Origin: Ostreococcus mediterraneus
Lineage: Eukaryota; Chlorophyta; Mamiellophyceae; Mamiellales; Bathycoccaceae
Direction: 5' to 3'
DNA length: 64,000 nucleotides
NCBI GenBank assembly: GCA_012295225.1
Contig: WMKK01000014.1
Span: 186,001 to 250,000 of the forward strand
Positions 45,640-52,267 of the stretch are shown here, in pieces. Made by a program: the position numbers and the translations under genes. The first letter of the stretch is position 1. Each line of letters starts with the position of its first letter. A model generated the notes under the pieces. It saw only the letters and a list, made by a program, of their open reading frames with translations, made no database searches and was not told the origin of the DNA.

Positions 45640-45745
45640 GCGTGCGTAGCCGCGCGCGACCGCGGCAGCGGCGTCGATGTGTGCGGAAAGAGTTGACTGC
45701 AATAATCAAAAAAGATCCTCAGAACGCGGCGCCGATTTCTTCGTC

Positions 45746-47581
45746 ATGTCGACGACGACGACGGATGCGTTCTCGAGGGTGATCTCGAACGCGCCACCGA
45801 CGGAGATGGACGTGAAGCAGTCGGCCGAGCTCGACGCCAAGTTGCACGAGCTCGACGTGTACGAATCGCCGGATGAGTGCTCGAGACGGGAGGAAGTGTT
45901 GGGGGAGCTCAACGCGCTCTTACAAGAGTGGGTGCGCGAGTCGAGCGCGAGGAAAGGGATCACGGAGGACATGAGACCGAGGTGTAACTTGTACACGTTC
46001 GGATCGTATCGATTGGGCGTGCACGGGCCGGCGGCGGATATCGATACGTTGTGTTTGGGACCGAGGCACTTGACGCGAGAGGATGACTTTTTTGGCGTGG
46101 AGTGGAACGACTACGAAGGGTCGTTTTATGACGTCATGCGCAAACATCCCGGGACAGATTCGATCGTGCCCGTGAGAGATGCGATTGTTCCGGAAATTAA
46201 GACTGTGTTTCGGGGCTTTGAGATTGATATGGCGTACACGTCGTTGCCGTCGTATACGAGCGTGCCCGAGGATTTAGACGTGTGTCAAACGTCTGTGTTG
46301 TTGAATTTAGACGATCCCGGGGTGAAGTCTTTGAACGGTTGCCGGGTAGCGGATCAGTTGTTGCGCGTCGTGCCCAATCATGACTCGTTTCGCGTGGCGT
46401 TGCGCACGTTGAGATTGTGGGCGGCGAGACGCGGGGTGTATTCAAACGTCGTCGGTTTCTTCGGTGGGGTCAACTTGGCAATTTTAGTCGCACGCGTGTG
46501 CCAGCTCTACCCAAACGCCGCACCATCGATGATTGTGTACTCATTCTTTCAATTATGGAGCACGTGGCAATGGACAACGCCGGTGATGCTGGTGCCGATT
46601 GAAGACGAAGGTTTGCCCGGGATGCGCGTGTGGGACGAGCGCGTGAACAAGGCGGAGAGATACCAATTGATGAAGATTTTAACCCCGGCTTATCCGGCGC
46701 AAAACTCCACTTTTAACGTCAGTGTCAGCACGCTCGAGGTTTTGAAGAAGGAATTCAAACGCGGCAAGGAGGTGTCTAAACTCATACTCTTGAACAAGTC
46801 GAAATGGGACGATTTGTGGATCAAGCTTCCATTCTTTTCCCTGTACAAAAATTACTTGCAAGTCACCGTGAGCGCGAAAACGCCCGAGGAATTCAAGACA
46901 TGGGAAGGTTGGGTCGGTTCCCGTACGAAAATCTTGATTCAATCGATTGAAAATTGCACGGGCGGCATGATGTTGGCTCACCCAGGAACGGCGCGTTACA
47001 AGGATCCGGAGTGGAAGGGCGGCGAAGATTGCCACGTGATTTACTTTTTAGGACTGTTCCCATCTGCGTTGAAGAAGGAAAAGAAGGAAAAGATGTCAAT
47101 GAATCTGAATCCTGCGGTGGAAAACTTTCAGATGACGGTGACGTCGTGGATGGATCGAGCCACGGGGGAGTCAAATTGGGTCCCCGGTATGTCGGCGCAA
47201 GTCAAACACGTAAAGAGAAAAGAATTACCAACCTTTGTCGCGGACGAAATTAAAGGGTACGAGAAGGACGTGTGGGTACCACCGAAAGTTGTCGCCGAAA
47301 AAGTCGAAGACGAAAGTTCAAACGGCAAAAAGCGTCGCAGCAATGGTGAAGACGGCGAGGATGGCGACGGCGGCGTCGAAGACTCGGCGGCGGCGTCTTC
47401 AAAGAAGGCGAAGAACAACTTGAGTGCGAGTGACATTAGTAAAATCGGCGACGAAAATACTGAACATGACGACTCACTCGTCCCCGAGCACGATTCAATA
47501 GAAACAGCAGCGACGGAAGACATCGCAAAGCGCGGCGGCGGCTTAAAGGTCTCCTTCGCCGCCGCGTTGTCCAAAAAGTAA
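45746..47581 (+). CDS. Canonical nuclear poly(A) polymerase
   Basis: Adds poly(A) tails to cleaved pre-mRNA. The 611-aa protein has the nucleotidyltransferase site NLYTFGSYRLGVHGPAADID with Asp98 and Asp100, and the third catalytic Asp161 in FRGFEIDMAYTSL. The central domain (VPNHDSFRVALRTLRLWAAR, GFFGGVNLAILVARVCQLYP, WTTPVMLVP, MKILTPAYPAQNSTFNVS) is the PAP signature. An RNA-binding C-domain follows (FFSLYKNYLQVTVSAK, WVGSRTKILIQSIE, CHVIYFLGLFPSALKK), then a basic nuclear tail (NGKKRRSNGEDGE). ATG 45746 is the first in frame. Confidence 0.96.
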   Translation: MSTTTTDAFSRVISNAPPTEMDVKQSAELDAKLHELDVYESPDECSRREEVLGELNALLQEWVRESSARKGITEDMRPRCNLYTFGSYRLGVHGPAADIDTLCLGPRHLTREDDFFGVEWNDYEGSFYDVMRKHPGTDSIVPVRDAIVPEIKTVFRGFEIDMAYTSLPSYTSVPEDLDVCQTSVLLNLDDPGVKSLNGCRVADQLLRVVPNHDSFRVALRTLRLWAARRGVYSNVVGFFGGVNLAILVARVCQLYPNAAPSMIVYSFFQLWSTWQWTTPVMLVPIEDEGLPGMRVWDERVNKAERYQLMKILTPAYPAQNSTFNVSVSTLEVLKKEFKRGKEVSKLILLNKSKWDDLWIKLPFFSLYKNYLQVTVSAKTPEEFKTWEGWVGSRTKILIQSIENCTGGMMLAHPGTARYKDPEWKGGEDCHVIYFLGLFPSALKKEKKEKMSMNLNPAVENFQMTVTSWMDRATGESNWVPGMSAQVKHVKRKELPTFVADEIKGYEKDVWVPPKVVAEKVEDESSNGKKRRSNGEDGEDGDGGVEDSAAASSKKAKNNLSASDISKIGDENTEHDDSLVPEHDSIETAATEDIAKRGGGLKVSFAAALSKK

Positions 47582-47863
47582 CACGACGTCGACTCCGCGG
47601 TCGTTAGATGATGAATATATTTTAATAGCCACGTACTACATTATGTTGAATATTCTTCTTTTTTCTTTCATTCGTTCATTATATCACGAACGTCGTCGTC
47701 ATCACGCGTCAACGTGCGTGCGTGCGTTCGAGGACAATAAATTCTACCCATAACTTTTCCCACCATACCCCTTTCGGACGGCCCGGACAATTTTCCGTGT
47801 TTATACCCCTCGTTCGAAACCCGCGTCGCGTATTTAGCGACGTTCCGCCGGAAAAACGGAGAC
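47582..47863. other. Poly(A) polymerase 3' region and tRNA upstream region
   Basis: Contains an AT-rich 3' stretch (47605-47690, probable transcript end) and a TATTTA element at 47831, about 33 bp before the tRNA 3' half, which could serve as a TATA-like Pol III element. No gene. Confidence 0.4.
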
Positions 47864-47977
47864 ATCAACAGGTCCCGAGTTCAATTCTCGGAGGGCCCTG
47901 CGTCGTGCGGTCGCAGCGCACGCGTGTGCCTGCGCCCTCTTGGGTTCTTAGCTCAGTGGTAGAGCGGTTGACTGCAG
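47864..47977 (+). tRNA. Circularly permuted tRNA-Cys(GCA)
   Basis: The 3' half precedes the 5' half. 3' half, 47864..47899: A38, anticodon-stem TCAAC, variable AGGTC, T-stem CCGAG, T-loop TTCAATT, CTCGG, acceptor AGGGCCC, and discriminator T73. A 42-nt spacer (47900..47941) follows. 5' half, 47942..47977: acceptor GGGTTCT, TA, D-arm GCTC AGTGGTA GAGC, G26, GTTGA, then CTGCAG with anticodon GCA. Joined at position 37/38 the halves give exactly 72 nt. All four stems pair, with two G-U pairs in the acceptor, and U73 is the tRNA-Cys determinant. Flanks AAAAAC (47852-47857) and GTTTTT (47983-47988) also pair, as expected for a circularised precursor. CCA is not encoded. The B box thus lies before the A box; T5 at 47984 may terminate Pol III. 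Confidence 0.92.
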
Positions 47978-48147
47978 GATATGTTTTTGCCAACCGTCGC
48001 GATTCCGCGAAACGCTGCGTTGAAGGGATGTGAGATGCAAGGTGTTCAAGCACGTGACGCGATTTAAGCGTCGAGGATGACCAACGTACGTTTCGCGCGC
48101 GTGGCGATGCGCGCGCGCGCGCGATGACTAAAGAATTGACTGTAGTA

Positions 48148-49179
48148 TTACTTTTTCGCGCGTTTGCCGCCCGCTTTCCCACCCTTACCCGGAGTTTTAC
48201 CCGACGCATCACCACCATCACTCTTGGTGCTCGATGATTTACGCTTGCGGTTAGCCTTTTCTTTCTCTTGCTGAATATGACGCGCTGCGGCGTTGACGTC
48301 GAACCCGGCGCCGCGCTCTTTTTCTTTGCGCAAGAGTTTTTGCACCACGTCGGCGCTCTTTTTGCGCTCAGTGTCAACTTCGGTGACGCTTGAGAACTGG
48401 CGACGTTTGCCACGCATTTTGATCTTATCATCACCCGCAACAGGGGCGTTGAATTTACCCACGGACGCCGTGGAGTACGCGACTTGCGCGGCGACATCCT
48501 TCATTTCGCGCTTGCCCAACTTGCCGGCGCCGACGGCGCCCTTTTTACCCGTCACGGATAATCGCAAAGTCGGCGGCAATGCCTTAACACCATGCGTAGC
48601 CACTGCATTCAACAAGTTTTTATTCTGTTTCTCTTGATTCTTACCCACACGCTCGCGCTTCTCTCTCTCCTCGCGCGTGAACGGATCCTCCGTCTTGCCC
48701 GCGACTTCGCTCCACTTCCCAGGCATGATAATCACCTCGTTCGCATCCTTGGCGCGTTGATATCCATGTCGTCGCTTCCACTCATCACTCTGCTCATCAA
48801 ACACGTGTTTCGTTCGCTTACGCTTCTTTATACCCTTATCCTTTGCAAACTGCTCCCACTTTGTCAACGGCTTCTCGCTCGGCGGCAACGCGCGAAGCCG
48901 CGGAAACGTCGTCTCCCCTTCCGGCAACTGCGCAAACCTCCCCGACACGTCCGTCTCGCTCGGCAGCGCAAACAACTCCGCAATCAAACGCTGTAACACA
49001 CCTCTCGCGCGCATCGACGCCAACTCCTCGCGATCGGGCGCGGTATACGTAAAATCCAACGGCGCCGCATCGCTCACGAGCAAGTGTCCCGCGTCAATGT
49101 CCAGCGGCCCTTCGTGCGCATCCACGGCATCGAGCGCGGCGGTGATCTTGATCCGCCCCGTGCTCGCATCGACATCCAT
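48148..49179 (-). CDS. RRS1: Ribosome biogenesis regulatory protein RRS1
   Basis: Large-subunit assembly factor that brings 5S RNP (with Rpf2, uL5, uL18) into pre-60S. The 343-aa protein has the RRS1 core: LLVSDAAPLDFTYT, LIAELFALPSETDVSGRFAQ, LPEGETTFPRLRALPPSEKP, LTKWEQFAKDKGIKKRKRTK, FDEQSDEWKRRHGYQRAKD. Its tail is Lys-rich (RKRKSSSTKSD, GGKRAKK), a nucleolar signal. The first ATG in frame is 49179 (MDVDASTGRIKI). The open frame continues upstream 43 codons over an Asp microsatellite to a GTG, which I do not take as the start. Confidence 0.93.
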   Translation of the reverse strand: MDVDASTGRIKITAALDAVDAHEGPLDIDAGHLLVSDAAPLDFTYTAPDREELASMRARGVLQRLIAELFALPSETDVSGRFAQLPEGETTFPRLRALPPSEKPLTKWEQFAKDKGIKKRKRTKHVFDEQSDEWKRRHGYQRAKDANEVIIMPGKWSEVAGKTEDPFTREEREKRERVGKNQEKQNKNLLNAVATHGVKALPPTLRLSVTGKKGAVGAGKLGKREMKDVAAQVAYSTASVGKFNAPVAGDDKIKMRGKRRQFSSVTEVDTERKKSADVVQKLLRKEKERGAGFDVNAAARHIQQEKEKANRKRKSSSTKSDGGDASGKTPGKGGKAGGKRAKK

Positions 49180-50990: not shown

Positions 50991-51130
50991 TCATTTTGCG
51001 CTACCGCGCTCAATACCGCCGCCGCCGCTCGTATCGCACGCTCGCTGTAGTATTTATTTAGTGTTAGAAACCGTAGGATGATGATTATAAGAATCGAGAG
51101 CTATAATGGATCGACGCCGCCTCGCGCCGT

Positions 51131-52267
51131 TTACGCCGCTCGCCGCCGCGCCGGTGGCACGTATTTACCATCCGATGGCGCCGTCTGGCCAAACCCGGGT
51201 GGCGGCGCGCGCGGCGCCGATACCGTCGTTTGCGCCGCGAGCTGCGCATGAAGCGCCGCAATCTGTGCTTCTAACGCACGTTGCTTGGCTTCGGCGTGCG
51301 GGTCGACGACTGGCACGTGCACGATGCGAACCGGCGCGTGCACTGGGGCGCCAAATCCAGGCGGCGGCGTCGACGTGCGACGGGCCAATGGAGCCGCGAC
51401 GTGCTCTTGCACAGGAACGTCAAAAGACGTTCCTGTCCTGTCAAAAGACGATGATGGCGCCACGCTTGCCTGCGCCACGTCGTTCGTTGCGCGCACTGGC
51501 GCGGCGTCGATGACAGTCTCGCCGGCTTCAGCCGCCGCCTTGGCCGCCGCCTTGGCCGCTTTGGCTTTCGCCTTGGCGCGACGCGCCCGGTCAATCCTCG
51601 TCTGCTCGTTCCACTCCCTCTTGATCATCAACACCTCTGCATCAATTAATATCGGCTTCTCTCCGGCATCCTTGCTAATTTTACGCACTCGCGGGACTAT
51701 TTTTGTGATTGACAGGCACAGAACGTTTCCGCCGTCTTCGCCGAGCTCCTCGCAGTTCACACTCCACGCGCCTTTGCCACCCTCAAACGTGTGCCAAAAC
51801 ACCTTGGACACCTTGACGACGTCATCGAGCTCGTTGCTATTGTCGCTCGAACGCTCATCGTCTCGTCCTCGCCGTCTCTCGTCGTCGTCGTCCTTGCCCT
51901 CCGCCGCCGTCCCGTCGTCCTCGCTCGGCGCAATCGTCTTTGCAATCTTCTTCGCCACAGATTTCGCAATACCGCTCCCTTTCGCTACTTTTTCAAATCC
52001 AACGCGTTGCGCCTCGCGCGCTTTCGCCTCCTGCGCCTCAATGAGCGCGTGCGCGCGCGCTCGTGCGGCTTCAACCTCCTGCGCTGCGGCTAAGGCTGCG
52101 CGCTTTTCGGCAGCGCTCTTCTTCTTCTTCTTCGTCGCCGTCGTCATCGCCGACGCCGACATCGACACTCGCGCAGGGGTATTCACCTTTCTAAATCCAC
52201 CACCACCACCACCGCCGCCGTCGTCGTCATCTTTCGCCGAAAGCGCCGCGAATGGATTCATCATCAT
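51131..52267 (-). CDS. Lys/Ala-rich protein of unknown function with KYVPPARRR end
   Basis: A 378-aa protein, MMMNPFAALSAKDDDDGG at the N-terminus. It has a Gly run, a Lys-rich helix (TKKKKKSAAEKRAALAAAQE), an Arg/Asp segment, a more ordered middle (VFWHTFEGGKGAWSVNCEEL, NVLCLSITKIVPRVRKIS, ILIDAEVLMIKREWNEQTR), a Lys/Ala helix, two PPPGFG motifs and the end DGKYVPPARRRAA. No family recognised; the low-complexity ends suggest RNA or ribosome binding, which is a guess. The ATG cluster at 52267/52264/52261 is the start. The frame upstream is antisense to the COMM-domain gene and is not used. Confidence 0.65.
   Translation of the reverse strand: MMMNPFAALSAKDDDDGGGGGGGGFRKVNTPARVSMSASAMTTATKKKKKSAAEKRAALAAAQEVEAARARAHALIEAQEAKAREAQRVGFEKVAKGSGIAKSVAKKIAKTIAPSEDDGTAAEGKDDDDERRRGRDDERSSDNSNELDDVVKVSKVFWHTFEGGKGAWSVNCEELGEDGGNVLCLSITKIVPRVRKISKDAGEKPILIDAEVLMIKREWNEQTRIDRARRAKAKAKAAKAAAKAAAEAGETVIDAAPVRATNDVAQASVAPSSSFDRTGTSFDVPVQEHVAAPLARRTSTPPPGFGAPVHAPVRIVHVPVVDPHAEAKQRALEAQIAALHAQLAAQTTVSAPRAPPPGFGQTAPSDGKYVPPARRRAA

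Follow-up and report, generated by a model that had tools for sequence, protein, structure and literature searches.

A probable circularly permuted tRNA-Cys(GCA) gene in the nuclear genome of Ostreococcus mediterraneus

An interval of 114 nt (positions 47864-47977) within the 64-kb stretch of DNA analysed here (the window) is best read as a type II circularly permuted nuclear gene for tRNA-Cys(GCA) from a prasinophyte green alga (Mamiellales), the product of which would be matured via a circular RNA. We place the probability of this reading, which an earlier note had proposed and which the analysis supports, at roughly 0.93. The two halves of the tRNA are encoded in inverted order, with the 3' half followed by a 42-nt spacer and then the 5' half, and a complete tRNA is obtained only when they are swapped. 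The halves join at 37/38; although the 5' half is 36 nt long, it reaches nucleotide 37 in standard numbering since position 17 is absent. With a 3' half upstream and a short spacer (36 + 42 + 36 nt), the arrangement is that of a type II permuted gene, and the spacer falls within the range of 1-74 bp seen in known permuted tRNA genes (PMC3978253). The locus and its surroundings comprise the following features.

45677-47581, + strand: poly(A) polymerase (PAP) gene
47800-47805, + strand: TTTATA, second TATA-like element, ~64 nt before the 3' half (read directly; matches the consensus only)
47831-47836, + strand: TATTTA, nearer TATA-like element, 33 nt before the 3' half (read directly; matches the consensus only)
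47852-47863, + strand: leader AAAAACGGAGAC, weak candidate partner in a relaxed bulge-helix-bulge (direct reading)
47864-47899, + strand: 3' half of tRNA-Cys(GCA), nt 38-73, 36 nt, ATCAACAGGTCCCGAGTTCAATTCTCGGAGGGCCCT, containing the B box and U73
47879-47887, + strand: B box GTTCAATTC, within the 3' half, matching the consensus
47900-47941, + strand: intervening sequence, 42 nt, GC-rich, without a T4 run
47942-47977, + strand: 5' half of tRNA-Cys(GCA), nt 1-37, 36 nt, GGGTTCTTAGCTCAGTGGTAGAGCGGTTGACTGCAG, containing the A box and anticodon
47949-47959, + strand: A box TAGCTCAGTGG, within the 5' half, matching the consensus
47974-47976, + strand: anticodon GCA, at the end of the 5' half
47978-47988, + strand: trailer GATATGTTTTT, containing T5 at 47984-47988
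48148-49179, - strand: RRS1 gene

When the 5' half is placed before the 3' half, the resulting 72-nt sequence adopts a cloverleaf as its minimum-energy fold (-24.1 kcal/mol, RNAfold) and is identified by ARAGORN as tRNA-Cys(gca) with all four stems intact. The 21 stem pairs are distributed over the acceptor (7), D (4), anticodon (5) and T (5) stems; only two are G-U pairs, both in the acceptor stem (4-69 and 5-68). Direct reading of the joined sequence revealed the invariant positions T8, A14, G15-C48, G18G19, A21, T33 and G37, together with a T-arm stretch of G53-TTCAATT-C61 that includes A57A58. Both elements that identify tRNA-Cys(GCA), the GCA anticodon and the discriminator U73, are present, while CCA is not encoded. 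The earlier note had described such a cloverleaf from halves reversed at 37/38, with U73, GCA, intact A and B boxes and no CCA. Its coordinates proved exact, and each of these elements was confirmed, both boxes matching their consensus.

An ordinary linear ARAGORN scan found no whole tRNA in the 64-kb window, bearing out the expectation that a standard tRNA scan would miss the locus; an Rfam scan at gathering thresholds likewise reported no tRNA in the window. The window was then cut into 260-nt slices, each of which was treated as a circle for ARAGORN. Under these conditions the tRNA-Cys was recovered with a score of 110.4 as a match spanning the origin of its slice, which is the signature of permutation. 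Circular slices also yield matches by chance, as illustrated by slice 51101-51360, in which a permuted tRNA-Tyr(ata) was reported for the minus strand. We rejected this candidate since its score of 100.3 lies below many shuffle matches, its sequence is GC-rich and it overlaps a long ORF. Low-threshold ARAGORN intron matches in the window (n = 43) were similarly discarded as noise.

The tRNA-Cys locus itself might be supposed to have come about by chance, tRNA-like sequences happening to lie side by side where the DNA is GC-rich. When wrapped and unwrapped ARAGORN matches were both counted, 1 of 1414 dinucleotide-shuffled 64-kb windows did exceed its score (113.6, the next best being 106.6). 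However, a strict permuted pattern built on the A box, B box and U73 matched once in the window and in none of 100 shuffles. Furthermore, the locus combines, independently of the stems, a T5 terminator, consensus A and B boxes and a Cys-type anticodon with U73, and permuted Cys(GCA) genes are known from comparable algae. A chance origin is therefore exceedingly improbable.

Beyond the window, the permuted pattern gave no match in the viral contigs scanned but identified 48 stretches in bacterial and archaeal genomes, nearly all in Corynebacterium. In all eight of the bacterial loci examined among these, the pattern had bridged two neighbouring ordinary tRNA genes, taking in the 3' half of the first and the 5' half of the second, and no permuted homologue was gained from bacteria or archaea. 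Tightly packed ordinary tRNA genes were also caught by the pattern in Hakubella and Bacterium HR35. Such genes are thus an obvious source of false positives, and a warning for searches for permuted tRNAs that rely on the pattern alone.

The same behaviour of the pattern lends some weight to a second explanation for the algal locus, namely that it is what remains of a tandem pair of ordinary tRNA-Cys genes after decay of their outer halves, a pseudogene that makes no tRNA. Additionally, permuted tRNA genes are proposed to have arisen when a tRNA gene was duplicated in tandem and the outer halves were subsequently lost. Yet no relic of an outer half was found within 500 nt on either side. Upstream, there was no similarity to a 5' half (300 of 300 shuffles scored as well), and downstream there was none worth noting to a 3' half (45 of 300 shuffles were as good). 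Since the scans of the window showed no complete tRNA either, the locus does not belong to a pair of adjacent, intact tRNA genes. Moreover, the retained halves match in 21/21 pairs and at the invariant positions, including the anticodon and acceptor stems that form between the halves; drift would be expected to erase these features from a pseudogene. We accordingly consider a decayed tandem pair unlikely.

A third explanation arises from the only suggestive Rfam match, to the Y-RNA-like family YrlA (RF02553; 47871-47965, 22 bits, E 0.037). On this account the locus would encode a tRNA mimic that binds a Ro protein and in which the T arm precedes the D arm, an order of the tRNA-like module that the locus does share. 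The match nevertheless falls well short of the gathering score of 69 bits, covers only the tRNA-like module (model positions 27-81 of 114) and does not take in the anticodon arm. A YrlA assignment would also leave the GCA anticodon stem-loop, U73 and the T5 terminator unexplained. Finally, the locus is carried by a eukaryotic nuclear contig, whereas YrlA is bacterial. A YrlA-like RNA is thus very improbable, and we treat the resemblance as convergent geometry. Conversely, permuted tRNA genes could give rise to false YrlA calls in searches at loose thresholds.

The surroundings of the permuted tRNA-Cys gene fit an algal nuclear genome. The gene occupies a 566-nt intergenic interval between the converging PAP and RRS1 genes. 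Neighbouring genes are eukaryotic and plastid-type; others in the window include RRP12, the VPS13 C-terminus, a HECT ligase, PUF, Vta1, a mitochondrial carrier, ACP synthase III and a triose-phosphate transporter. The window is gene-dense and intron-poor, with long uninterrupted eukaryotic ORFs and a GC content mostly of 50-60%. Its gene density and composition fit a Mamiellales nuclear genome and, together with the known distribution of permuted Cys(GCA) genes, point most likely to an Ostreococcus-like alga. A search of viral contigs for a relative of the neighbouring poly(A) polymerase gave no confirmed match.

Potential transcription signals flank the gene. The T5 run at 47984-47988, six bases downstream of the 5' half, is the first run of four or more T residues once the 3' half has begun. 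By chance, a T5 would be expected inside a 15-nt stretch at ~1.2% of positions. From its sequence and placement, it is a likely RNA polymerase III terminator. Upstream lie the TATA-like elements TATTTA (47831) and TTTATA (47800), identified by consensus alone. A second perfect B-box-like sequence, GTTCGAAAC (47812-47820), was observed beside TTTATA (47800-47805), ~44 nt ahead of the 3' half. It lies outside any T arm, and there are ~25 such matches on the + strand of the window; it may be a chance occurrence or an upstream pol III element.

Transcription of algal permuted tRNAs requires an upstream TATA-like element, the inverted A and B boxes being ill-suited to TFIIIC (PMC3978253). In the published algal pathway, the splicing endonuclease cuts at a junction motif, the ends are ligated to a circle, RNase P and tRNase Z remove the spacer and CCA is added; experiments on red and green algae have demonstrated both the circle and the mature products (PMC3978253). 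The two TATA-like elements, the T5 terminator and the lack of an internal T4 run all fit this pathway. By analogy with these published cases, RNA polymerase III would probably depend for its recruitment on an upstream TATA-like element and not on the A and B boxes, and its transcript would run from the leader through the 3' half, the 42-nt spacer and the 5' half into the trailer, stopping at T5. The tRNA-splicing endonuclease would cleave after nucleotide 37 and before nucleotide 38, and a ligase would join the cut ends to produce a 114-nt circle in which the spacer forms a loop closing the acceptor stem. RNase P and tRNase Z would then excise the spacer, and CCA addition would complete a normal tRNA-Cys that could be charged.

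We also assessed the putative cleavage motif at the junction. In the eukaryotic register, C32-G(-3), U33-A(-4) and C35-G(-6) pair while G34 and G(-5) are mismatched, giving three of four central pairs; C32-G(-3) presumably takes the place of the anticodon-intron pair known from introns of eukaryotic tRNAs. The remainder of this bulge-helix-bulge (hBH) is poorer, with an oversized 7-nt bulge and an outer helix at chance level. This helix corresponds to the flank pairing claimed in the earlier note. AAAAAC (47852-47857) can indeed pair with GTTTTT (47983-47988) provided that the 7-nt bulge is accommodated, but the claim carries little evidential weight. Watson-Crick helices of 6 bp with this geometry turn up at 3.7% of random positions, and adding the helix shifts the computed energy by ~+0.6 kcal/mol, so that no net stability is predicted. 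Furthermore, some of the trailer U residues may be missing from the RNA because the T-run is also the likely terminator. The nearer TATA-like element, for its part, might set the start site so close that AAAAAC stays untranscribed. For reasons of chance frequency, energy and the double role of the T-run, the flank pairing is counted as weak support.

Predicted folds of the precursors introduce a caveat to the permuted-gene reading. The minimum-energy fold of the linear precursor was computed at -54.7 kcal/mol, against -43.8 kcal/mol when constrained to the cloverleaf; for the 114-nt circle the corresponding values were -42.2 and -35.5 kcal/mol. The preferred computed folds of both molecules lack the cloverleaf; in them the 5' half is engaged in pairing with the GC-rich spacer. 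These energies ignore tertiary contacts and modification.

Whether the locus had already been catalogued was a question raised by the earlier note, and its kind certainly has been. A table in Soma 2014 (PMC3978253), drawn from Maruyama et al. 2010, includes permuted Cys(GCA) genes of type II, joined at 37/38 and without an intron, in three prasinophytes: O. lucimarinus (spacer 26 bp), O. tauri (38 bp) and Micromonas pusilla (12 bp). The tabulated O. tauri gene has the same tRNA, junction type and absence of an intron and a similar spacer (38 versus 42 bp). The tabulated O. lucimarinus gene agrees in tRNA, junction and lack of an intron but differs in its spacer (26 versus 42 bp); its locus carries an extra 5' half downstream, whereas that of O. 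mediterraneus does not. The entry for M. pusilla shares the tRNA and junction, with a spacer of 12 rather than 42 bp. The 11 permuted genes of Cyanidioschyzon merolae also show the type II arrangement, with CCA not encoded, a TATA-like element upstream and a T-run downstream. Unlike the present locus, however, that set contains no Cys gene, and other junction types and introns also occur in it. Permuted tRNA genes numbered 34 as of 2014, and permuted tRNAs have since been reported from Auxenochlorella (PMC12636532) and from a second chlorarachniophyte nucleomorph (PMC4494063).

Since no tabulated spacer is 42 bp long, the locus probably belongs to another species or strain and is probably an orthologue of the listed permuted Cys(GCA) genes. 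It could, however, be the O. tauri gene already listed, if Maruyama et al. set the half boundaries differently. In either case, the existing entries for three prasinophytes much reduce the novelty of the locus, which is a further example and not a new phenomenon.

Thus, the O. mediterraneus locus probably extends the short list of permuted tRNA genes by one species or strain. Considered alongside its orthologues, it could reveal whether a permuted gene is passed on stably or originates again and again. The locus further illustrates how standard tRNA annotation leaves such genomes seemingly without a tRNA at permuted loci. An ordinary tRNA-Cys(GCA) gene elsewhere in the genome would not by itself refute the permuted gene. 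We tentatively raise the possibility, to which we give somewhat less than even odds, that the permuted gene is the only source of tRNA-Cys(GCA) in this alga and that it has been permuted across the Mamiellales since before the split of Ostreococcus and Micromonas. If so, all nucleocytoplasmic cysteine decoding would depend on a circular RNA intermediate.
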